From the NCBI GenBank assembly GCA_001780955.1, contig MFJR01000006.1, positions 1 to 32,380 of the forward strand: 32,380 nt of DNA. Direction: 5' to 3'. The position numbers were made by a program, and so were the translations under genes. The stretch comes from Candidatus Gottesmanbacteria bacterium RIFCSPLOWO2_01_FULL_39_12b. GTDB taxonomy: Bacteria; Patescibacteriota; Microgenomatia; 2-02-FULL-39-11. The notes below the pieces were generated by a model. The model saw nothing but the letters and a program-made list of their open reading frames with translations, did not search any database and had not been told where the DNA came from. Below, one piece after another: positions 6,479 to 26,950 of this stretch (within the stretch, counting starts at the first letter, position 1; the number at the start of each line of letters is the position of its first letter).

Positions 6479-7042
6479 ATGATAAAAAAGATAAAGGTCG
6501 GGTTAGATTTTGACGGTGCGATTGCCTATAATCCCTTTAGAATTATTCGTGCTCCGGTAACCTACGTAAAAAGAAGCATCTTCGGAGCCAGAAAACTCAA
6601 CTTCTACTATCCGAAAAACAATTTCCAGAAATTACTTTGGAAGATTATTCATGAATCAAGTATCTTTCCGGCAAAGGGAATTGATGTGTTGCGCGATTTA
6701 GTGGCAAAAGAGCTGATTGAGGCTCATTTGATAACCGCCAGATACAGTTTTTTGAATAATCAGCTTTATACGTGGCTCGGAAAAAACAGGTTGACGGGGG
6801 TTTTCAAGACCATAAATATCAACGAAAAAGATGAACAACCTCATCTGTTTAAAGAAAAGATGGTAAATAAGCACAAATTGGCGATTTTTATCGAAGACAA
6901 TCTGGATATTGTCAAACATCTGCATGGAAGAAGCAAGACTAAAATTTACTGGATTTATAACATAGTGGACAGACATTATCCTCATCCGTATAAATTTCCC
7001 TATTTGGAAAGAGCCTTGGAAAAGATAATGAAACAGGTATGA
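6479..7042 (+). CDS. HAD-superfamily hydrolase (putative nucleotidase/phosphatase)
   Basis: This is a small HAD-like phosphohydrolase of 187 residues. The catalytic aspartate motif DFDG has D10 as the likely nucleophile and D12 as the likely acid/base. A second motif, LITAR, is near residue 79-83, and the acidic Mg-binding motif IEDNLD is near 140-145. The arrangement resembles the short NT5C/YqfW-type nucleotidase family, but the substrate cannot be read from the sequence. As the first gene of a run with a GT4, a methyltransferase and a GT2, it may dephosphorylate a sugar or nucleotide intermediate of glycan synthesis. The ATG follows an extended -10 by six bases, and no Shine-Dalgarno sequence exists, so the message is probably leaderless. 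Its stop overlaps the next start (ATGA). Confidence 0.75.
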   Translation: MIKKIKVGLDFDGAIAYNPFRIIRAPVTYVKRSIFGARKLNFYYPKNNFQKLLWKIIHESSIFPAKGIDVLRDLVAKELIEAHLITARYSFLNNQLYTWLGKNRLTGVFKTININEKDEQPHLFKEKMVNKHKLAIFIEDNLDIVKHLHGRSKTKIYWIYNIVDRHYPHPYKFPYLERALEKIMKQV

Positions 7043-8214
7043 AAATCCTTTTTTCCCTTACTTACTACACTCCATATGTTTCCGGCTTAACCTTATATGT
7101 CAAAAGACTGGCAGAAGCCTTAGCAAAAAAGAGCTATCAAGTATCTGTGATTAGTTTTCAGTATAGAAAGGACTTAAAGCTTGAAGAGGAGATTAATAAG
7201 GTTAGAATAATCAGAATACAACCGTTGTTTCGAATCAGTAAGGGATTTTTCTCTTTAAACTGGTTACTTAGAAACGTAAGGGAAGTGAAATTATCAGACA
7301 TTGTTGTGATTAATCTACCGCAGTTTGAAGGGATAGTACCGGCCATTCTTGCCAAAATATTCAACAAAAAACTAATTTGTATTTACCATTGCGAGGTAGT
7401 TTTACCAAACGGTTTTTTAAACAAGCTGGCCCAAACCTGTCTTAACTGGTCGAATTACTTAACCCTGTTTTTTTCTGATCAGGTAATTACCTACACCGGG
7501 GATTATGCCGGACATTCAAAAATTCTGCCAAGATTCTCTGATAAAACTAGGTATATTTATCCCCCAATCTTAGCTCCAAAAGTAGATAAAAGAGTACAAA
7601 AAGTGATCAGAGGAAAGTTAGGGTCAGACCTTAAACGCGTTAAAGGTCTGACCCTTATAGGTATTGCCGCTAGACTGGCAGCGGAAAAGGGGATAGAGTA
7701 CGTATTGGAAAGTATTCCAATACTAAGTTCAAAGTTCAAAGTTCAAAGTTCAAAGTTACGAGAACCAGGGATTAAGATTGTAATCGCAGGACCTGAAGAT
7801 CCGGTAGGAGAAGAGAGATACAGAGAGAAGATTAATCACTTAGTTGAGAAATATAAAGATTACGTTGTATTTATTGGAGAGTTAAAAGAAGAAGAGATGG
7901 GTTCTTTTTATTCGTTGCTTGATGTTTTGGTGCTTCCTTCGATCAATTCCACCGAGGCTTTTGGTATGGTTCAGGTGGAAGCGATGATGATGGGAATACC
8001 GGTTGTAGCGACTGACTTGCCAGGAGTTAGAGTGCCGATTCAAAAGACGGGGATGGGAAGAATAGTACCAATAAAAAATAGTGAAAAATTAGCAGAGGCA
8101 ATTATCGAAATTCTTCGAAATAAAAATAAATATATTAAGGATAAAGAATTTATCAAAAAAGAATTTTCCCTTGAGAAGACGATAGAGTTTTATAAGAAGT
8201 TATTGAGTTTGTAA
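7039..8214 (+). CDS. GT4-family glycosyltransferase
   Basis: This is a cytoplasmic retaining glycosyltransferase with the GT-B fold. The N-terminal domain opens with the usual SLTYYTPYVSGLTLYVKRLA stretch. The C-terminal domain starts at IGIAARLAAEKGIEYVLESI (about 210-230). The donor-site E-x7-E signature is in TEAFGMVQVEAMMMG, near residue 310. At 391 residues it has normal family length. Two segments look added. Residues about 195-206 (GSDLKRVKGLTL) are encoded by a 36-base palindrome at 7620-7655. Residues about 230-240 (SKFKVQSSKLR) come from a heptamer tract at 7725-7757. Both lie at loops and keep the frame. It overlaps the HAD gene by four bases and is followed by a methyltransferase after six. 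The sugar specificity is unknown, and a role in surface glycan assembly is inferred from the locus. Confidence 0.9.
   Translation: MKILFSLTYYTPYVSGLTLYVKRLAEALAKKSYQVSVISFQYRKDLKLEEEINKVRIIRIQPLFRISKGFFSLNWLLRNVREVKLSDIVVINLPQFEGIVPAILAKIFNKKLICIYHCEVVLPNGFLNKLAQTCLNWSNYLTLFFSDQVITYTGDYAGHSKILPRFSDKTRYIYPPILAPKVDKRVQKVIRGKLGSDLKRVKGLTLIGIAARLAAEKGIEYVLESIPILSSKFKVQSSKLREPGIKIVIAGPEDPVGEERYREKINHLVEKYKDYVVFIGELKEEEMGSFYSLLDVLVLPSINSTEAFGMVQVEAMMMGIPVVATDLPGVRVPIQKTGMGRIVPIKNSEKLAEAIIEILRNKNKYIKDKEFIKKEFSLEKTIEFYKKLLSL
7620..7655. repeat. palindromic element inside the GT4 gene (family A, copy 1)
   Basis: Arms AGGGTCAGACCTT (7620-7632) and AAGGTCTGACCCT (7643-7655) are perfect 13-bp complements. 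The centre, AAACGCGTTA, is nearly self-complementary. The length of 36 bases equals 12 codons, so the reading frame is kept. Read on the minus strand it encodes RVRPLTRLRSDP, almost the same peptide that copy 2 adds to the next gene (RVRPLARLRSDP). Confidence 0.85.
7725..7757. repeat. heptamer tandem repeat (GTTCAAA)4 inside the GT4 gene
   Basis: Four exact GTTCAAA units (7727-7754) with partial units on both sides give a 33-base tract, which is 11 codons. The same heptamer occurs on the minus strand at 23533-23597, where it encodes the same FKVQ peptide in a GT-C protein. Confidence 0.9.
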
Positions 8215-8220
8215 AAAAGG

Positions 8221-9042
8221 ATGAATCTAGAATCTATCTTAAAAAAATATCTTTCGGAGCGGCCTTTATTTCTCTCTCTTATAAGAGCTAAAGAAGCGGA
8301 GCTTTATCAGAAGTATTTACCGTTAAAAAAACCGGTATTAGATGTAGGTTGCGGAGACGGATTTTTCGTAAAGGTGACGTTTAGGGTCAGGCCTTTAGCG
8401 CGTTTAAGGTCTGACCCTGTTCGAGATTTAAGGCCTGACCCTGTGATAGATGTAGGATTAGATCTGAAAGACAGTCGAATTGAGGAAGCGAAACAATTAA
8501 ATATCTACAAAAAATTAGTTATTTACAATGGCAGAAAAATTCCTCTTCCAAACAATTCGTTTTCTACTGTTATCTCAAACTGCGTCTTGGAGCATGTTAG
8601 TGATCTATATAACGTAGTTAAAGAGGTTAACCGGGTGTTGAAACCCGAAGGAACGTTTTTGACAACAGTTATGGCTAAACCATGGGAGGAAAATTTATTT
8701 GGTACTAAAATTATCGGAGGAGCATATAAGGAATGGATGAGAAAAAGGCAATTGCACCGAAATTTATTATCAAGGACTGAATGGGATCAAATGTTTCAGA
8801 GGGCGGGTTTTACGATAAAAGAATCTACCGGTTACTTAAATCCTCAAGCCTGCGCAGTGATTGATCTCAGTCACTATTTATCAATTCCAAGTTTAATCTC
8901 TTATAAACTGTTCGGCAGATGGATATTGTTTGAGGGATTGGCCGTAAAACTTATCCCGGTCAAATATCTGGTAAAGGTTTTATCGGAAAAAGTGTTGAAA
9001 GATGAGTCCGGAGCCATATTTTACGCCTTAAAAAAGAAATGA
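8221..9042 (+). CDS. class I SAM-dependent methyltransferase
   Basis: A class I methyltransferase of 273 residues with motif I, LDVGCGDGFF, at 40-49, an acidic strand, VGLDLKDSRIEEA, at 78-90, and the Methyltransf_11-type NCVLEHVSDL near residue 122-131. The substrate is unknown. The neighbours suggest a sugar or a glycan-linked molecule. Between motif I and the acidic strand, residues about 54-74 are extra and are encoded by a three-armed palindromic element (8383-8442). In ordinary family members this connection is short. The ATG lies six bases after the GT4 stop, with AAAAGG touching it, so ribosome spacing is unusually tight and re-initiation after the upstream stop is likely. Its own stop overlaps the next start by four bases. 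Confidence 0.88.
   Translation: MNLESILKKYLSERPLFLSLIRAKEAELYQKYLPLKKPVLDVGCGDGFFVKVTFRVRPLARLRSDPVRDLRPDPVIDVGLDLKDSRIEEAKQLNIYKKLVIYNGRKIPLPNNSFSTVISNCVLEHVSDLYNVVKEVNRVLKPEGTFLTTVMAKPWEENLFGTKIIGGAYKEWMRKRQLHRNLLSRTEWDQMFQRAGFTIKESTGYLNPQACAVIDLSHYLSIPSLISYKLFGRWILFEGLAVKLIPVKYLVKVLSEKVLKDESGAIFYALKKK
8383..8442. repeat. palindromic element inside the methyltransferase gene (family A, copy 2)
   Basis: Three arms are present: AGGGTCAGGCCTT (8383-8395), AAGGTCTGACCCT (8406-8418) and AAGGCCTGACCCT (8430-8442). The first and third are perfect complements. The first and second pair with a single G-T. The total of 60 bases equals 20 codons and keeps the frame. It is about 730 bases from copy 1 and in the opposite orientation. 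Confidence 0.85.
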
Positions 9043-18803: not shown

Positions 18804-20897
18804 ATGAGAAGATATTTAGTCATATTTCTTTATATTCTGGGATTTAGCGTACCTTATTTAATTAACAGTAACCATTCTCTCTATACTTTTTTGTATACTT
18901 CAGGATTAATCGATTATCTTGACAATTACCTAAAGATAGGTAGGACAGTTCTTGTTGATACTCTTACTATTTTTGTAATCTGGTCTTTTATTACTGCACT
19001 TATATTTTTGCTTAGTAAAGCAGGTAAAGATGTTTTTGAATCATTTATTCATGATTTTAGAAAGGTTACAAGTGAAAAATATAAGTTAAATGCGACACGA
19101 ATTTTAGTTATTTTTACTTCTTTATTTTCCTGTTTATCTGTCTTTGGGTATGTAATTTTTAAAATATACCGAGGTGAAGCTATTTCTAACTCGCCGGTGG
19201 TGTTCCTTTTTATTATCGCAACACTTCTTAGTGCTTTTTTGCTTCTAGATATTTCTAAAAAAATAAGGATATTGAGTATTAGAGGAATTGACATTGTTAT
19301 TACTGTATTTTTGATTGTTCTTTGCATTTTGACTCTTGGATTTAACCTGAGATTTCCCAAAGAGATGGTTGCTGATGAAGCAGCATCATGGGAGACGGTT
19401 AGACATATCTTAAGAGGGGAATACAAAGCAGATATTTTCTCTTACGGTTATTATGGATATCCTGCTTTTAACGTTTTTGTGCAGGCAGGGTTACTTCGTT
19501 TACTTCATTTCACAGATAAAGGTATTGAAGGTTGGAGATTTACGGCAGTGCCAATGGCAGCCCTTGCTGTTGTGGGAGTATATTTTCTAACGAGAAATCT
19601 CTTTAACAAAAAGATTGCCGTTTTATCTTCATTGTTACTTTTGGTAAATCCATATTTTATGATACTATCCAGAATTTCTTTTCCTACCAATCAGTCTATA
19701 ATACCTCCCTTGTATACTGTGTTGTTTGCCCATGTTGGTGTTACTCTTGACAGTTTATTTTATATTTCTTTGGCTGGTATATTTTCAGGATTAGGATATT
19801 ACGTGTATCCATCAGCAAAAATATCCGTAATCATAGGCGTTTTAATCTTGCTTTATTATCTGTTTACACAAAAAAGTAAAAGGGGAAATTTAACTATTTC
19901 TTTAGTATATCTTTTCTCATTTATTTTAACCGCAACACCGGTAATTTTGTCAGGATGGGTTTATAAAGCAAATGAAGGAAACAGAATTTATCAGTCCAGC
20001 GTACTAAGCGTAGACTTCTTAAAGAGTGTCTATCCGAATGTTTCAAAAGACCAATTAACTTCATTCTATCCCCTAAGACTGATAGGTGATAAATATAGGG
20101 TTTATTTCCACCCGATCGCAATACCTTTTGCTATCAGAAATGTCATTGTATCAATTGTTTCACTTTTTCAAGCTGAGCCTATATACGATCTCAATTTCCG
20201 TTCTTCGATAGGGGGTACAGAATGGGGATTTGCCATATTTACCGGTTTCCTCGCAGTATTGTACAGGTTAGTCAAAGGCAGAGAAAAAACTAAATATATA
20301 CTTATTTTAATCTGGTTTTCGGTGAGCATGATAATTCTTGGAGGAATTTTTGGCGCCGCCCAGTTTTGGCGACTTGAACCTATTTTACCCATCTTGGCTA
20401 TTTTTTCAGGAATCGGATTATACCCTTTATATATTTGCCTAAGAAAGCTAACAAAAGGGTATTCTGGAGTATTTATTTTTTCGGCTTTTATAGCTTTCTT
20501 ACTTTCAGTAAGCATGTATAGATACTTTAAGCTTATGAGGATTCCCTATAGTGAGGAAAAAGAATTTGAATGGGACCTTTCTTACGCTGTCAATGACGCT
20601 AAGAAAAATGATATGGTCTATTATATCTATGATATAAAAGAAGGAATCAAATACGGAGGAGGAATATTATTTAACTATATGCATTTGGATGACTCAAGAT
20701 ATGCATCCATTCCTATCAATGAAGTCGAAAATATACTAAAAAGAACGCCAACCGGTAAAATATTTTTTTATTATTTAAAAGATTATAACAATCTGACTAA
20801 TAAACTTACTGATTATCATGGCCAAGACGACAAATTGTATATCTCCCGTTCAAAAAAAGACAATAGTATTTTATATTACCGATACAGCAGGGAATAA
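18804..20897 (+). CDS. GT-C/GT39-like membrane glycosyltransferase
   Basis: A polytopic protein of 697 residues. About 190 N-terminal residues form four or five extra helices. The PMT_2-like core then starts at ILTLGFNLRFPKEMVADEAA (172-191). The acidic DE in VADEAASWE lies at the position of the GT39 catalytic Asp, and SYGYYGYPAFNVF follows, as in related transferases. A soluble tail covers roughly 590-697. It begins right after the stop of the upstream GT-C gene. Its last 22 bases overlap the end of the converging gene 20876-22708. Acceptor and donor are unknown, with an undecaprenyl-phosphate sugar as likely donor. Confidence 0.75.
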   Translation: MRRYLVIFLYILGFSVPYLINSNHSLYTFLYTSGLIDYLDNYLKIGRTVLVDTLTIFVIWSFITALIFLLSKAGKDVFESFIHDFRKVTSEKYKLNATRILVIFTSLFSCLSVFGYVIFKIYRGEAISNSPVVFLFIIATLLSAFLLLDISKKIRILSIRGIDIVITVFLIVLCILTLGFNLRFPKEMVADEAASWETVRHILRGEYKADIFSYGYYGYPAFNVFVQAGLLRLLHFTDKGIEGWRFTAVPMAALAVVGVYFLTRNLFNKKIAVLSSLLLLVNPYFMILSRISFPTNQSIIPPLYTVLFAHVGVTLDSLFYISLAGIFSGLGYYVYPSAKISVIIGVLILLYYLFTQKSKRGNLTISLVYLFSFILTATPVILSGWVYKANEGNRIYQSSVLSVDFLKSVYPNVSKDQLTSFYPLRLIGDKYRVYFHPIAIPFAIRNVIVSIVSLFQAEPIYDLNFRSSIGGTEWGFAIFTGFLAVLYRLVKGREKTKYILILIWFSVSMIILGGIFGAAQFWRLEPILPILAIFSGIGLYPLYICLRKLTKGYSGVFIFSAFIAFLLSVSMYRYFKLMRIPYSEEKEFEWDLSYAVNDAKKNDMVYYIYDIKEGIKYGGGILFNYMHLDDSRYASIPINEVENILKRTPTGKIFFYYLKDYNNLTNKLTDYHGQDDKLYISRSKKDNSILYYRYSRE

Positions 20898-22708
20898 TAA
20901 TTAACAGGTCTGACCTTTTTAAAAATCAGTATCTTCGGATGATCATAGACGGTAAAAGTCTCATCGGCATAATCATCTACAAAACTTATACCATTAAGAT
21001 CGCATCTCTGATCTTTTTTAGCAATAATTCCATATCGGGCCAAAAGTGGAGTTAGACAAAGTTTGATAAAAGGAAGAGGAATATTCGGCCGGGAAGTAAA
21101 TTCCGCCACCTTTTCAAATCCCAGAGAGCCGTCAAACAAAGTTTGATAATATTTTTCTGTAACCGGATATTTTTTAGGATTTGTTAAAATAGAACCATAG
21201 AGACGGTTACTGGACATAATTATATAATCCGCTTGAGATAGTTTATCAATCATTTGCTTCCATTTGTCCTGCGTATCCGGCCAGTAAAGAGGAAACTCAA
21301 TACTTTGATATTTTTCGTGAATTTTACCGATCCCCGGTAAACTTAGCGGTAAATAGTCATCCCAATGTTCGCCGGAAAGTTTTGCACCCGGGGGGATATT
21401 TATATAGATCCAATTTGAAGCTTCAACTCTTGAATGACTTCGGGAGTAGATGGTGATGAAAGAGAGGGGATAAACAAGTACGAATATACAAATAAACAAA
21501 TAAACAAATAAACCAATTTTGTATTTTTTAAATACTTTGGAGATAAAATAGCCAGAGAGAATTGCTAAAAAAGGATAGATAGGAAAGAAATATCGAAGGG
21601 CTTTGACGAACTGAAATCCTTGATAGAAAAAAAGAATGAGAATCCAGAGGACAATAAGATTGAGTTGTGAGTTGTGAGTTGTGAGTTGTGAGTTAAATTT
21701 TCTTTTTATTAACTCGTAACCTACAACCCATAACCTATAACTGATTGCCAGTAAGGTAATTATTCCTAAGGGCAATCCCAGTCCCCACAAAATAAGATTT
21801 TTTAATGGGAATATATAAGGTTTAGTGTAAATCCATTGTATTGCAGGGGGAAAGCCGCCGCTGACATCATCAAAAGACTTCAGCTGTTTCCAGTTGTCCA
21901 GGACTTTTGGGTTCAAAGTAAAATCAAAAATATCGGGATTGGCAAAAAGGTATGGTTGCGCGAGGCGGAAAGTAAAATAAGTAGAAACAAAGAACAAAGA
22001 ACAAAGAACCCCGAAGCAGAGTAAGCTCGCTACGGGGCGGGCAAAGAAGGGAGTCTTATTTTTTATACATGCAATTATGAGTCCTAGACCAATTACCGGT
22101 AAGAAAAGCATCGCAGAGATTTTTGAGGCAAGCGCAAGACCGAAGGAGAAACCCAAGAGAGTATACAGTATATAGTATATAGTATTTAGTATTTTGGGGA
22201 AAGAGATGATTCTTATTAGTAGATAAAACGATAAAGTTATAAAGAATGTTAGATAAGTATCTACAGCGTAGAAGTGAGAAAGTTGAATAGGGAGAACCGA
22301 CGCGGCATAGAAAAAAGCCGCGAGTAACCCAATGATCCGACTTCTTTGTTTTCCGATCAGGAAAACGAGAATAACTGTACCAATATCAAATAACGCTGAA
22401 AGCTGCCTGCCTACAAGAGTTAAGTTAGTATAATCACCTTTTCCCAGACTTTCCGCTACCCATTTGGTAAAAAATATAGGGAACGTTCCATAGACAAAAA
22501 AACTAAAATTACGGTTATGAGGATTAAGGGGAGAGATGGCAGTATCTAGATATTCATTTAGATTCCTTGGCCAGGAGATGGCTGTTGAAACCATCGTTAA
22601 GAAGCGTTCATCAGGATGAAGATGTTGGTTTTGATCCCAGTTGAAACCGTAGAGTCGAAAAAAGGCGGATAGAAGTAAAATCCCGATTAATAATAGTTTA
22701 TGTTTCAT
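20876..22708 (-). CDS. GT39/ArnT-like membrane glycosyltransferase with embedded repeats
   Basis: A GT-C protein of 610 residues with a first helix at 4-21, then the catalytic-type HPDERF (31-36) and FFVYGTFPIFF. About eleven further helices follow, and a soluble C-terminal region runs from about 425. It is a paralogue of the next gene: both share an acidic PDER motif, an R-V-x-A-S-x-W-I-Y motif after the last helix and an F-x-V-x-D-H-P end. Four repeat tracts lie inside the frame: 22160-22194, 21987-22037, 21662-21694 and 21489-21514. All map to helix ends or loops and none breaks the frame. The last residues (FKKVRPVN) are encoded by a sequence resembling half of palindrome family A (20904-20914). 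Start ATG 22708 is four bases after the upstream stop. Confidence 0.8.
   Translation of the reverse strand: MKHKLLLIGILLLSAFFRLYGFNWDQNQHLHPDERFLTMVSTAISWPRNLNEYLDTAISPLNPHNRNFSFFVYGTFPIFFTKWVAESLGKGDYTNLTLVGRQLSALFDIGTVILVFLIGKQRSRIIGLLAAFFYAASVLPIQLSHFYAVDTYLTFFITLSFYLLIRIISFPKILNTIYYILYTLLGFSFGLALASKISAMLFLPVIGLGLIIACIKNKTPFFARPVASLLCFGVLCSLFFVSTYFTFRLAQPYLFANPDIFDFTLNPKVLDNWKQLKSFDDVSGGFPPAIQWIYTKPYIFPLKNLILWGLGLPLGIITLLAISYRLWVVGYELIKRKFNSQLTTHNSQLNLIVLWILILFFYQGFQFVKALRYFFPIYPFLAILSGYFISKVFKKYKIGLFVYLFICIFVLVYPLSFITIYSRSHSRVEASNWIYINIPPGAKLSGEHWDDYLPLSLPGIGKIHEKYQSIEFPLYWPDTQDKWKQMIDKLSQADYIIMSSNRLYGSILTNPKKYPVTEKYYQTLFDGSLGFEKVAEFTSRPNIPLPFIKLCLTPLLARYGIIAKKDQRCDLNGISFVDDYADETFTVYDHPKILIFKKVRPVNYYSLLYR
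21489..21514. repeat. octamer tandem repeat (AATAAACA) in a GT-C gene
   Basis: Three units of AATAAACA, the last ending in C, follow a CA. The 25 bases are identical to 23261-23285 in the paralogous gene. On the coding strand it encodes VYLFICIFV, part of the last membrane helix. Confidence 0.85.
21662..21694. repeat. heptamer tandem repeat (GTTGTGA)4 in a GT-C gene
   Basis: Four exact GTTGTGA units (21664-21691) with partial units give 33 bases, encoding NSQLTTHNSQL on the minus strand. The tract and the next three bases are identical to 25886-25921 in the unrelated FAD oxidoreductase gene. Confidence 0.92.
21987..22037. repeat. heptamer tract joined to a palindrome in a GT-C gene
   Basis: Three ACAAAGA units (21987-22007) run directly into a hairpin: CCCCGAAGC (22009-22017) pairs with GCTACGGGG (22029-22037) with one mismatch, and the loop has a small GAG/CTC stem. 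On the minus strand this reads RPVASLLCFGVLCSLFFV within the protein. Confidence 0.75.
22160..22194. repeat. heptamer tandem repeat (AGTATAT-like, five units) in a GT-C gene
   Basis: AGTATAC, AGTATAT twice and AGTATTT twice make 35 bases in frame. On the minus strand it encodes KILNTIYYILYT at a membrane segment. Confidence 0.8.
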
Positions 22709-22712
22709 TATT

Positions 22713-24731
22713 TTAATTTAATGTTATTATTTTTTTATATTCCTCTAAAGTCATTGGTTTAACCTTTCGATATATTCTAACAACCGGATGGTCAAAGACG
22801 GTAAAAGTTTCTTCTGCCTGTTCGTCGGGGATTTTGACCGGACCGATTGCCGGATACGAAGTTATTTCGGTTACTTTTTCAAATCCTAATTTGCCGGAAA
22901 ACAATAATTGATAATATTTTGTGGTCAATGGATACCTTGAGGGATTTTTCATATAATTGGCAAAGATTCTTCTGGAGGGGATGAAGATATAATCAGCATT
23001 TTCAAGATGTGTCAGAAGCTGTTGAAAAAGAAAAGGGTTTTCGTCCAAATGATAGAAATCAAAAGATATGGTTGTAAGTTGTGGGTTGTGAGCTGTAAGT
23101 TCAAGAAAACCAAGAGGGATATCAACCACATTAGCAGTTTCCGAGAGGATATATGATTTGTTAGGAACGTTGTCGTAAATCCATTTGGAGGCGGTTACTC
23201 TGGTGTCTTCGTGGGTATAGATGGACATAAACATTATCCCTGGAAGGATTGATGTAATGACAAATAAACAAATAAACAAATAAACTACATTGTCATTCCG
23301 AGCTTGTCGAGGAATCTTTTGTTTCCAAAGATCCCTCCACTTCGGTCGGGATGACACTAAGAAAAAAAGAAAATATCCGGCAAAGATAGCAAAAAAAGGT
23401 AAAATAGGCGTCATGAATCTTGTCCATTTGGCAAAAAGAAAAGCATTGGGGATAAAATAAATCCAAAATCCAATTATCAAAATTCCAATTAAATCCAAAT
23501 GATTAAAATCAAAATATTTTCTTATTCTTAATTTTTGAACTTTGAACTTTTCGGCCCGAGGCCGACCAGCCTTGGGTTGGGAACTTTGAACTTTTTGTAT
23601 TATGAACAGAATCAAACTTAGAAATAGTTTGAGGGTGGTTAAAAGAATACCAATACTACCTACTATAAACACCGGCCAGCCAAGGGCATAGGGAAATATT
23701 TTTTCCATCTGGAAAGTGATTGGAGTGGCATTGATAAATTGCCTAGTATAAAAAGCTTCGTATTTACCGGTAGCAACATCAGATTCATAACCGAAGACAG
23801 CGCTCCTGAAATTAGCCGGCTCGATGAGATTATAGGGTGAGGATATGACAAAAACCAGTAAACTTATTACGATAATTAAGTAAATCATGTAACCATGAAA
23901 CAAAGTAATCATCTTCCTCTTTTTTTTATTCCTGGAAACTGATTTAAACCAGTGGATCAATATTGCGATAGTAGGTGGAATATAGAGAAAAATCCCGGTA
24001 AGTTTGCTGCCCGTGGTAAGACCGATGACGAGTGAAGTGTAGAGTATGAATTTAAAGTTACTTAAGTGACTTAAGTAATTAATAGATAAATAAACTGAGG
24101 CCAGAAAGAAAAAGGTGAGAAGCGATTCCGTAGTGCCAAAATGGGATGCCTGGATTAGACCGGGAGTAAAGGCAGTTATGAGGGCAGCTAGGGTACCCGG
24201 TGTCATTCCGAGCCGCCAGCTGGCGGAGAGAAATCCAGCGAAGTGTATAGTACGTCCCGATTTAATCGGGACTAGATCTCTCACTTTGTTCGAGATGACA
24301 TTAGTAGTTAGATAAACGAGAAGCACAGTTAAAGTAGAGAATAGAGCGGAGTAAAAACGGAGCCAGAAGATGGCGGAAGGGAAGTCGGTTGAGAAATTCA
24401 AAGGCAAGGGCAGCCCTTGCAGCCATGCAAGGGCTGCCCTTGCAAGGCTATCGCTGATAAAAGCAAGATAGAGTGGAAATTGCCCGTAAGCAAAGAAATG
24501 AGGATTGAGATTACAGAGTGGTTGTTCCGATCGGGTTATTAATTCTGAGATCAAACATGAGGGAATTGCTGCCGGATTTGCCGGAAGTCTAAACTGGGTT
24601 ATTGCGTTTGCCATATTGCGTTCGTCGGGATTGAAAAAGAAAGGCGCATCGTGCATTAAATTATAAAATCGAAGTATGGCCGCGGTTAGGAAAATGATAA
24701 TTATGAGGTATGGTTTTTTATTAGAGGACAT
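22713..24731 (-). CDS. GT39/ArnT-like membrane glycosyltransferase with many embedded palindromes
   Basis: A GT-C protein of 672 residues, paralogous to the following gene. It has a first helix at 8-20, NPDERN (34-39) as the catalytic-type motif, FFAYGQFPLYL (79-89), about eleven helices and a soluble end. It carries more embedded repeats than any other gene here: a 40-base palindrome (residues about 97-110), a 100-base composite palindrome (144-177), a heptamer-palindrome-heptamer block (380-400), a 66-base palindrome (459-481), an octamer tract (482-490) and degenerate heptamers (544-554). All leave the frame open. The added peptides (for example KIPRQARND, GRTIHFAGFLSASW) are those that such palindromes typically encode. 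Length is therefore well above the 610 of its paralogue. The start overlaps the UbiA gene by 11 bases. Confidence 0.8.
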   Translation of the reverse strand: MSSNKKPYLIIIIFLTAAILRFYNLMHDAPFFFNPDERNMANAITQFRLPANPAAIPSCLISELITRSEQPLCNLNPHFFAYGQFPLYLAFISDSLARAALAWLQGLPLPLNFSTDFPSAIFWLRFYSALFSTLTVLLVYLTTNVISNKVRDLVPIKSGRTIHFAGFLSASWRLGMTPGTLAALITAFTPGLIQASHFGTTESLLTFFFLASVYLSINYLSHLSNFKFILYTSLVIGLTTGSKLTGIFLYIPPTIAILIHWFKSVSRNKKKRKMITLFHGYMIYLIIVISLLVFVISSPYNLIEPANFRSAVFGYESDVATGKYEAFYTRQFINATPITFQMEKIFPYALGWPVFIVGSIGILLTTLKLFLSLILFIIQKVQSSQPKAGRPRAEKFKVQKLRIRKYFDFNHLDLIGILIIGFWIYFIPNAFLFAKWTRFMTPILPFFAIFAGYFLFFLVSSRPKWRDLWKQKIPRQARNDNVVYLFICLFVITSILPGIMFMSIYTHEDTRVTASKWIYDNVPNKSYILSETANVVDIPLGFLELTAHNPQLTTISFDFYHLDENPFLFQQLLTHLENADYIFIPSRRIFANYMKNPSRYPLTTKYYQLLFSGKLGFEKVTEITSYPAIGPVKIPDEQAEETFTVFDHPVVRIYRKVKPMTLEEYKKIITLN
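23071..23101. repeat. degenerate heptamer tract (GTTGTGA-like) in a GT-C gene
   Basis: GTTGTAA, GTTGTGG, GTTGTGA and GCTGTAA are followed by GTT. It is the same family as 21662-21694 and 25886-25918 but has decayed, encoding ELTAHNPQLTT. Confidence 0.75.
23261..23286. repeat. octamer tandem repeat (AATAAACA) in a GT-C gene
   Basis: It shares 25 identical bases with 21489-21513 in the paralogue, at the matching place in the protein. It lies four bases from the 66-base palindrome. Confidence 0.85.
23291..23356. repeat. 66-base palindromic element (family B, copy 1) in a GT-C gene
   Basis: It begins TGTCATTCCGAG and ends GTCGGGATGACA. The arms pair imperfectly over the whole length, including GGAATCTT with AAGATCCC. 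It is 22 codons long, in frame, and encodes SSRPKWRDLWKQKIPRQARN on the minus strand. This matches the widespread TCATTCCGAGC-type intergenic palindromes, here inside a gene. Confidence 0.85.
23533..23597. repeat. palindrome inserted in a heptamer tract, in a GT-C gene
   Basis: TTTGAAC units at 23534-23547 and 23585-23591 (TTTGAAC again, with flanking partial units) surround CCCGAGGC (23555-23562), a 6-base loop and GCCTTGGG (23569-23576). The heptamer is the same as in the GT4 gene at 7725-7757. The palindrome seems to have split an older heptamer tract. Confidence 0.8.
24201..24300. repeat. 100-base composite palindrome (family B, copy 2) in a GT-C gene
   Basis: The outer ends, TGTCATTCCGAG and CGAGATGACA, are those of family B. 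Inside lie two more perfect palindromes: CCGCCAGCTGGCGG (24213-24226) and GTCCCGAT-TTA-ATCGGGAC (24254-24272). The second shares CCCGATTTAATCGGG with 25684-25698. This looks like repeats nested in a repeat. Confidence 0.85.
24404..24443. repeat. 18-bp perfect inverted repeat in a GT-C gene
   Basis: GCAAGGGCAGCCCTTGCA (24404-24421) and its exact complement (24426-24443) are separated by GCCA. Each arm is itself nearly palindromic. On the minus strand it encodes ARAALAWLQGLP. Confidence 0.9.
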
Positions 24732-25681: not shown

Positions 25682-25700
25682 ACCCCGATTTAATCGGGGT
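25682..25700. repeat. palindrome at the end of the FAD gene
   Basis: ACCCCGAT (25682-25689) and ATCGGGGT (25693-25700) pair around TTA. The last base of the FAD gene's stop codon touches the palindrome. The core CCCGATTTAATCGGG is identical to 24256-24270. There is no T-run, so it is unlikely to be a strong terminator. Confidence 0.75.
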
Positions 25701-26950
25701 CAACCTCCATTATTTACGATTTCTGCTACTTGAAAACCTAATTCTATCGCATAATTAGTCCCTCTATCCCATGGATAAACCATGTCCATATTAGCTAAAT
25801 AAACTTGGGGAATTGGCGTTTTGAAACCCGGTTTGATTTGGGAATAATTTGTCTTAAAGACCGGTTGAGCGAAGGGACCAAAAAAGAGTTGTGAGTTGTG
25901 AGTTGTGAGTTGTGAGTTAAAATTCGGATTTATTTTTTTAATAAAGGGAAGATAAAGCTGGAGTAATTCTTCTTTAGTCAGTTTAAGATATGGATGGTTA
26001 GGGGGAAGATAATTTGCTATCCAGGTAATATGCTGGCCATTATATTGTTTACAGCTTATTAAATTGGTTTGTTGTACTATGGCAATAAAAGGGAATTTAC
26101 GGTCGTTGATGTTTAACCAGTAAACCTTGTCCAGGATTTTATCTTTGGTAAACAGCAATAAATTATAGGCATGCAGGTGAGGGATTTTTGTAATTTTTTT
26201 AATATAATCCTTAGGCAATTTTGGAAACATCTTCGCAAAAATTGCCGACGGAGTGGTAATAATTATTTTATCAAATTTACTTGTTAGACTTTCCTTAAAT
26301 TCATTATCGAGCAATATTTGTCCTCGATTTCTGACAAACGCTTTTGCGATTGATTCAAGAAGAATCTGATAACCACCCGAAAGATATCCCAACCGCGGCG
26401 TCCTTTTTTTTATTCTTGCCCAAAACCAGGCCATATTGACAGTTTCGGCATATGGCCCGAATTTTCCATCCAAAAGAGGTTTCCACAACAGATTAAAAGT
26501 TTTTAGCCCAAAATAGCGTTTTAACCAGTCATAAGCACTCCAATCTTCAAGACTCTGCCCTGATGTTTTGGGTAAAATTTTTAAGTAAGTCAGAATTAAA
26601 CCAGTTCGCAGGCGCTCTATAAAGGTTAAAGGTGAAAAGGTTAAAACATCCCAGGGAGAATTGAAAGGATACGTTTTATTACCGTAATAAATTGAGGTGA
26701 CAGTTTTGGGAAAGAGGAGATGCTTTTTTAATCCGAGTTCTTCTATTAAATCCAAAGCATAGGAATCATTTGTGAACCAGTGGTGATAGTGTTTTTCCAA
26801 AGCCCAACTCATCCCTGGTAATTTAAAGGTTCCTGCCAGTCCGCCAAGAGTTTTTTCTTTTTCAAAGAGGGTTACCTCATGATTTAGTTTGGAGAGTATA
26901 TAGGCAGCAGATAGACCGCTAAAACCGGCTCCGACAACGGCTATTTTCAT
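25700..26950 (-). CDS. FAD-dependent amine oxidase-like protein (NAD(P)/FAD oxidoreductase)
   Basis: A flavoprotein of 416 residues. The dinucleotide-binding motif VVGAGFSGLSAAYIL is at 5-19, followed by LFEKEKTLGGLAGTF (29-43). The C-terminal FAD contact region is VYPWDRGTNYAIELG near 392-406. It resembles protoporphyrinogen oxidase/UDP-galactopyranose mutase-like proteins that sit in polysaccharide loci. The conserved EKHYHHWF near 52-59 is typical of this locus-associated group. The reaction is unknown, with oxidation or isomerisation of a lipid- or nucleotide-linked sugar a reasonable guess. A heptamer tract (25886-25918) adds NSQLTTHNSQL at about 345-355, a peptide also found in the GT-C gene. 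The start overlaps the upstream stop by four bases. Confidence 0.83.
   Translation of the reverse strand: MKIAVVGAGFSGLSAAYILSKLNHEVTLFEKEKTLGGLAGTFKLPGMSWALEKHYHHWFTNDSYALDLIEELGLKKHLLFPKTVTSIYYGNKTYPFNSPWDVLTFSPLTFIERLRTGLILTYLKILPKTSGQSLEDWSAYDWLKRYFGLKTFNLLWKPLLDGKFGPYAETVNMAWFWARIKKRTPRLGYLSGGYQILLESIAKAFVRNRGQILLDNEFKESLTSKFDKIIITTPSAIFAKMFPKLPKDYIKKITKIPHLHAYNLLLFTKDKILDKVYWLNINDRKFPFIAIVQQTNLISCKQYNGQHITWIANYLPPNHPYLKLTKEELLQLYLPFIKKINPNFNSQLTTHNSQLFFGPFAQPVFKTNYSQIKPGFKTPIPQVYLANMDMVYPWDRGTNYAIELGFQVAEIVNNGG
25886..25918. repeat. heptamer tandem repeat (GTTGTGA)4 in the FAD oxidoreductase gene
   Basis: Four exact GTTGTGA units with partial ends, 33 bases, are identical to 21662-21694 including the next three bases. 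It is in frame and encodes the same NSQLTTHNSQL peptide in an unrelated protein. Confidence 0.92.

Follow-up and report, generated by a model that had tools for sequence, protein, structure and literature searches.

In-frame palindromes and short tandem repeats in two GT-C glycosyltransferase genes of a Gottesmanbacteria-like Patescibacterium: probable local samples of repeat families spread through its coding DNA

Rickettsia is the classic case of mobile palindromes lodged in protein genes, and what moves them there is unclear. The Rickettsia palindromic elements (RPE), 105–146 bp in length, are mobile palindromes inserted in frame in conserved protein genes (Ogata et al. 2000, reviewed in PMC2229807), and a guanylate kinase carrying one of them stayed active (PMC2229807). 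Classical REPs are mostly extragenic and often present in more than 100 copies per genome (PMC2817692, PMC3116915, PMC8266576); the transposases associated with them, RAYTs, are defined by their flanking palindromes (PMC2817692). REPs with a GTAG/CGTC head have been reported wholly inside genes in several species, with the highest figures in O. terrae and R. conorii (PMC3733652); most REPs of that survey are intergenic, and many of the intragenic ones sit in replication and repair genes. Two further systems come close in one respect each: the palindromes in the mitochondrial coding sequence of Nematomorpha, which are long, perfect and apparently under active maintenance (PMC6649704), and the heptanucleotide TAACTGA repeats of Beggiatoaceae, a single unit found mostly between genes (PMC4679880).

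The locus described here resembles RPE in arrangement, with in-frame palindromes that lie in conserved genes (PurD, GatB, GT-C B) and are absent in relatives; the frames of these genes stay open and the motifs flanking the inserts are conserved. Whereas RPE are the elements of one lineage, we find in a Patescibacterium several unrelated, shorter and nested families together with arrays of 7- to 9-mers. As in the REP/REPIN systems with a RAYT (TnpA-REP), one hairpin family, F1, is found on the flanks of a RAYT gene and scattered over the genome; unlike classical REPs it has 19 copies in the whole genome, of which 15–16 are inside ORFs, and no GTAG/CGTC head is visible by eye at these copies, an absence which concerns the classical sub-families and not the association with a RAYT. 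The intragenic REPs of PMC3733652 differ from ours, since in this genome a family has the majority of its copies inside genes and many gene classes are hit. The Nematomorpha palindromes share the placement of inverted repeats within coding sequence, but ours are short, dispersed families; the Beggiatoaceae repeats are likewise short direct repeats of a heptamer at numerous sites, but here the units are many and 28 of 41 arrays lie within ORFs. A limited literature search found no publication describing elements of this kind from Gottesmanbacteria or any other Patescibacteria. The present case differs by its lineage, by a RAYT-associated hairpin with the majority of its copies in genes, by how many nested families there are and by the re-use of loops across genera.

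The host is an uncultured, small-genome groundwater bacterium, Candidatus Gottesmanbacteria-like, whose draft genome of 1.27 Mb consists of 15 contigs and contains runs of N. The window, that is, the whole stretch of 32,380 nt analysed, is the entire contig C6. Its GT-C genes and repeats are as follows, the repeats being given without strand.

20876–22708, minus strand: ORF of GT-C A, PMT-family membrane glycosyltransferase of 610 aa (Pfam PMT, E 1.1e-8)
22713–24731, minus strand: ORF of GT-C B, PMT-family membrane glycosyltransferase of 672 aa (Pfam PMT/TMEM260-like)
21483–21517: octamer array AATAAACA, 4.4 units, coding for A 398–409 within a transmembrane segment and adding no net length
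21661–21741: two facing heptamer arrays, AACTCAC (4.9 units) and degenerate GTTATRG, coding for A 323–350
21986–22009: heptamer array AACAAAG, 3.4 units, coding for A 234–241
22010–22045: GC-rich imperfect palindrome, coding for A 222–233
22160–22192: heptamer array AGTATAT, 4.7 units, coding for A 173–183
23069–23104: degenerate heptamer array, coding for B 543–555, a loop of the C-terminal soluble domain
23260–23285: octamer array ACAAATAA, 3.2 units, coding for B 483–491
23291–23356: 66-nt TGTCAT..ATGACA palindrome, 22 codons, coding for B 459–481
23534–23598: TTTGAAC heptamer array with a nested GC-rich palindrome, coding for B 378–400
24055–24076: 9-mer repeat ACTTAAGTnACTT, coding for B 219–226
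24201–24300: 100-nt composite TGTCAT..ATGACA palindrome, coding for B 144–177
24404–24443: 18-bp perfect inverted repeat GCAAGGGCAGCCCTTGCA, coding for B 97–110
7621–7654: F1 REP-like hairpin, in frame in the GT4 gene 7039–8214, residues 195–206
7725–7757: heptamer array AAGTTCA in the same GT4 gene
8384–8441: F1 hairpin plus a partial second unit, in frame in the methyltransferase gene 8221–9042, residues 55–74
25886–25918: heptamer array GAGTTGT in the flavin amine oxidase-family gene 25700–26950, its unit shared with 21661–21694

GT-C A and GT-C B are paralogues (33% identity, E 8e-30), and every repeat that the preliminary description had listed for the pair, at least ten in frame, was found again, including the 66-base palindrome of exactly 22 codons, the outer ends that it shares with the 100-base one and the 18-bp perfect inverted repeat. 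The AlphaFold model of GT-C B (mean pLDDT 87) finds its PDB fold matches by Foldseek in ALG12, ArnT, OST and Pmt4; the multi-pass PMT/ArnT/OST fold and the Pfam PMT domain place the protein in the GT-C class. The same description had located the repeats at helix ends and in loops, which is correct for the palindromes: those of GT-C B (residues 144–177, 378–400 and 459–481) occupy inter-helix loops, the parts of the model with the lowest confidence. It does not extend to the octamers A 398–409 and B 483–491 or the heptamers of A 234–241, which fall within transmembrane segments, either predicted or aligned, where native sequence is replaced at unchanged length, the octamer at B 483–491 being within helix 476–506 of the model. 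The octamer and heptamers of GT-C A substitute for orthologous sequence of about equal length, the facing arrays at A 323–350 taking the place of a variable loop; the palindrome at A 222–233, where the protein has about 9 residues more than nearly every orthologue, is the sole repeat in this protein that adds residues. Palindromes mostly add loop and tandem arrays mostly rewrite sequence, the 7- and 8-mers usually overwriting native residues, transmembrane helices included.

A match to the GT-C B gene is present in 35 of 59 related genomes (one genome per species), the nearest named orthologues being those of Candidatus Gottesmanbacteria and other Microgenomates; orthologues from named genomes were retrieved with an alignment query, some of the search peptides taken from the single protein being repeat-encoded. 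GT-C B is longer in at least ten genera of its own family than in other Microgenomates families, which are mostly without its variable loops, and the extra residues fall in about eight of these loops. At the DNA level many of these additions prove to be repeats, and about ten Gottesmanbacteria genera fill the same loops with differing palindromes or heptamers. Such a succession of occupants, in stretches that the model predicts with low confidence, supports the earlier suggestion that the loops tolerate insertion; far from being fixed in all orthologues, the elements are replaced there by others or by empty sites. An internal stop in the matched ORF was seen in one orthologue of the family only (G002).

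The individual sites illustrate this re-use. At B 459–481 the element measures 66 nt in the window, 102 nt in the orthologous locus L071 and 99 nt in L072, always a multiple of three, and all three share the outer ends TGTCATCCCGACC and TCGGAATGACA around differing interiors; it would thus seem to be an old insertion whose interior has changed repeatedly in frame. The neighbouring octamer of B 483–491 recurs identically in L072, and L071 has a different one, TTATTGGG. At B 378–400, L071 carries heptamers without the palindrome, which is present in the window only; the B 543–555 loop holds other heptamers or a palindrome in orthologues. The loop around B 221 contains the 9-mer repeat in the window and L072 and two different palindromes in L071 and L078. 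The composite 100-nt element near B 147 has two other palindrome families built into it, CCGCCAGCTGGCGG and CCCGATTAAATCGGG, with CCGCCAGCTGGCGG at 24213–24226 and CCGATTAAATCGGG at 24256–24269; its length is not a multiple of three and the net gain over orthologues is about 26–27 codons, so that about 20 nt must have been replaced. The corresponding site has a different palindrome in L078 and no long insert in L071–L073, L075–L076 and L079–L080. Around B 100, the 18-bp inverted repeat of the window corresponds to another palindrome in L071 and to heptamers in L073 and L074; related copies of GCAAGGGCAGCCCTTGCA occur within ORFs of L010 and L063 of the same genome. It is also worth recording that the heptamer AACTCAC, found at 21661–21694, 25886–25918 and L010:5368–5398, encodes LTTHNSQ-like peptides in unrelated proteins; GSDLKKSQGLTP is one example of a predicted insert-encoded peptide.

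How far these repeats extend beyond the GT-C genes was surveyed in 39 stretches plus the window, 783 kb or 62% of the genome, of which 91% is called coding (ORFs were called mechanically). Ungapped and strict gapped hairpin scans overlook the 66- and 100-nt elements because these are imperfect, and families were therefore defined by word over-representation. The in-frame repeats exceed chance by a large margin: 30 period-7 arrays of at least 24 nt against 0.0 in shuffles of the 783 kb, and 53 ungapped hairpins scoring at least 13 in the genome scan against 4 by chance. The TGTCAT-type palindromes had been presumed to be usually intergenic, which is not so here. In the 783 kb, TCATTCCGAG pairs, the motif of the 66- and 100-nt family, are wholly within ORFs in 7 of 7 cases, F1 hairpins in 14 of 17, the F2 word CGCCAGCTGGCG in 27 of 34 and heptamer arrays in 28 of 41; other families, such as CCTGGGAGGTG (2 of 9 in ORFs) and CCCGATTAAATCGGG (3 of 10), are mostly intergenic and serve as an internal control against over-calling.

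The hosts include GatB, CysRS, AspRS, SerRS, PurD, a PurF-like enzyme, adenylosuccinate lyase, NadA, UvrD and glutamate dehydrogenase, besides several GT4 and GT2 enzymes, and these housekeeping genes rule out that the repeats are exclusive to GT-C genes. GatB residues 116–141 are missing from all solved GatBs, and Gottesmanbacteria GatBs carry in this loop and in a second one palindromes or heptamers that differ by genus. An F9 word in CysRS was set aside as a probable chance occurrence, its position coinciding with a conserved motif. As side observations, the CGCCAGCTGGCG palindrome encodes the identical peptide IRQLADQ in GatB (L055:19601) and CysRS (L061:18729) without net insertion, and the ORF L010:3138–6770 (1211 aa, about 11 TM segments, no Pfam match) has six elements, including F1 and a GCAAGGGC palindrome.

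F1 is a 36-nt hairpin of the form GGGTCAGACCTT-N10-AAGGTCTGACCC, 18 of the 19 copies having the 10-nt loop. Copies in ORFs, the two of the window (7621 and 8384) among them, use two of the three frames, reading GSDL....GLTP or RVRP....RSDP; the third frame has a TGA in the arm, and the loop letters contain no stops in the frame used. In PurD, F1 accounts for exactly 12 extra codons compared with the solved enzyme; the site is empty in at least nine other Gottesmanbacteria and F1 is present in the sister genus G010. Six ORFs of the genome belong to Y1_Tnp (IS200/IS605-like Y1 transposases). One of them, at L152, scores 83.6 against the NCBIfam REP_Tyr_transpos cut-off of 80 and is bracketed by inverted F1, with GGGGTCAGACCTTGATT upstream and an inverted copy plus a full hairpin downstream; many other Microgenomates RAYTs likewise have their own palindromes on their flanks. 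This RAYT is the likely mobiliser of F1, as judged from the arrangement of the sequences. The TCATTCCGAG motif was absent from the flanks examined at all six RAYT loci of the genome.

It is tempting to go further and regard F1 as a coding-adapted REP, a RAYT-mobilised unit of 12 codons with two stop-free frames and a stop-avoiding loop that would spread in frame and routinely add 12-residue loops to proteins, essential ones included; we put this forward tentatively, as a possibility that is less likely than not. Among 374 genomes of the class, 12 contain F1-like hairpins and the length is fixed in two genera, yet loops of 8, 18 or 21–22 nt are found in several of the 12, and some of these variants are also in ORFs. 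Consequently the 36-nt length alone is no proof of coding adaptation, and a unit of 3n is no strict requirement.

Taken together, the GT-C repeats are best understood as the local share of short repeat families that have invaded coding DNA throughout the genome, a reading to which we assign a probability of about 0.75. Palindromic families would be copied to new sites as short hairpins, in the case of F1 probably by the genome's own RAYT. With a coding density of about 91%, most copies would land in genes, and those which survive would be the ones that keep the frame (a net change of 3n and an open frame) in a surface loop or linker; the same few loops would be refilled lineage after lineage and elements would come to nest in older ones. 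The 7-, 8- and 9-nt arrays presumably stem from a different, slippage- or template-like process which rewrites sequence, often at constant length. T-rich arrays would be read as hydrophobic helix, since T-rich codons give hydrophobic residues, and may on that account persist in transmembrane segments. The long-looped, multi-pass GT-C proteins would then be permissive hosts, and the inserts, if translated as predicted, need no specific function: they are better viewed as tolerated mobile hairpins, adaptive variation being not proven.

The preliminary description had also raised the idea that variation is selected in surface-glycan enzymes, altered extracytoplasmic loops bringing a glycan change or escape from host or phage. 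This appears improbable. Elements are denser in ORFs with at least nine TM segments than in those with none (0.26 against 0.16 per kb, p=0.016, window excluded), and lineage-specific residues per genome number 51–141 in GT-C B against 0–49 in GatB. However, the enrichment of polytopic membrane genes is only about 1.6-fold, multi-pass proteins have long loops that are permissive in any case, ordinary lineage-specific loops are among the extra GT-C residues, and the same families, with the same re-use of loops, recur in soluble housekeeping enzymes, GatB, CysRS, AspRS, SerRS, PurD, NadA and UvrD all carrying elements. Essential genes do not show exactly equal density, yet they are clearly hosts. 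Glycosyltransferases by Pfam make up about 6 of 36 hosts and 2 of 30 non-hosts, a sample too small for a claim. Of all ORFs, GT-C B is among the two with the highest density, and it has more elements than its length would predict (uncorrected P=2.8e-5; corrected for 764 ORFs, about 0.02), so that some effect specific to GT-C genes may be at work.

We consider it quite unlikely that the 7- and 8-mer arrays are contingency loci, slippage switches which turn surface-glycan genes on and off by frameshift. Their units are not multiples of three, period-7 arrays are far above chance, and a single glycan cluster has them in its GT-C, GT4 and flavoprotein genes; but the arrays are short (3–5 units) and often degenerate, they take the place of native sequence without altering its length, arrays of the heptamer/octamer type are found in CysRS (L061:18488) and UvrD (L066:6716) as well, and the GT-C B orthologues, G002 excepted, have no internal stop. 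Hardly credible is an artefact, palindromes as chimeric inverted reads or assembly junctions, which the draft state of the genome might suggest and which is contradicted by related elements with open frames at the same sites of independent named MAGs, the fixed length of F1 in two genera speaking against it too.

If the reading as a genome-wide invasion holds, a Patescibacterial lineage would combine a Rickettsia-like outcome with a candidate mobiliser, clean empty sites, several families, nesting and loop re-use. Two questions come within reach of experiment: do RAYTs insert hairpins into genes, and to what extent do small genomes that are about 90% coding make new protein loops from mobile DNA? 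There is also a warning, as lineage-specific loops of Patescibacterial proteins may be repeat-derived and not functional.

Some observations on other families may be added. GTCATTCCGAG is found 28 times in G001 and 42 times in G010 (sister genera, both strands) against 5 times here, and the family has therefore expanded in these two. A second RAYT-like ORF, L154 (G000:C7:533572–536841), is flanked by palindromes of the CACCTGGGAGGTG family, which, unlike F1, is mostly intergenic here (7 of 9). Finally, a RAYT from another family, L158 (G109:C13), is 59% identical to that of L152, most others being 30–47% identical, which suggests horizontal transfer; its flanking palindrome, CGAGGCCTGGCCT, differs from F1.
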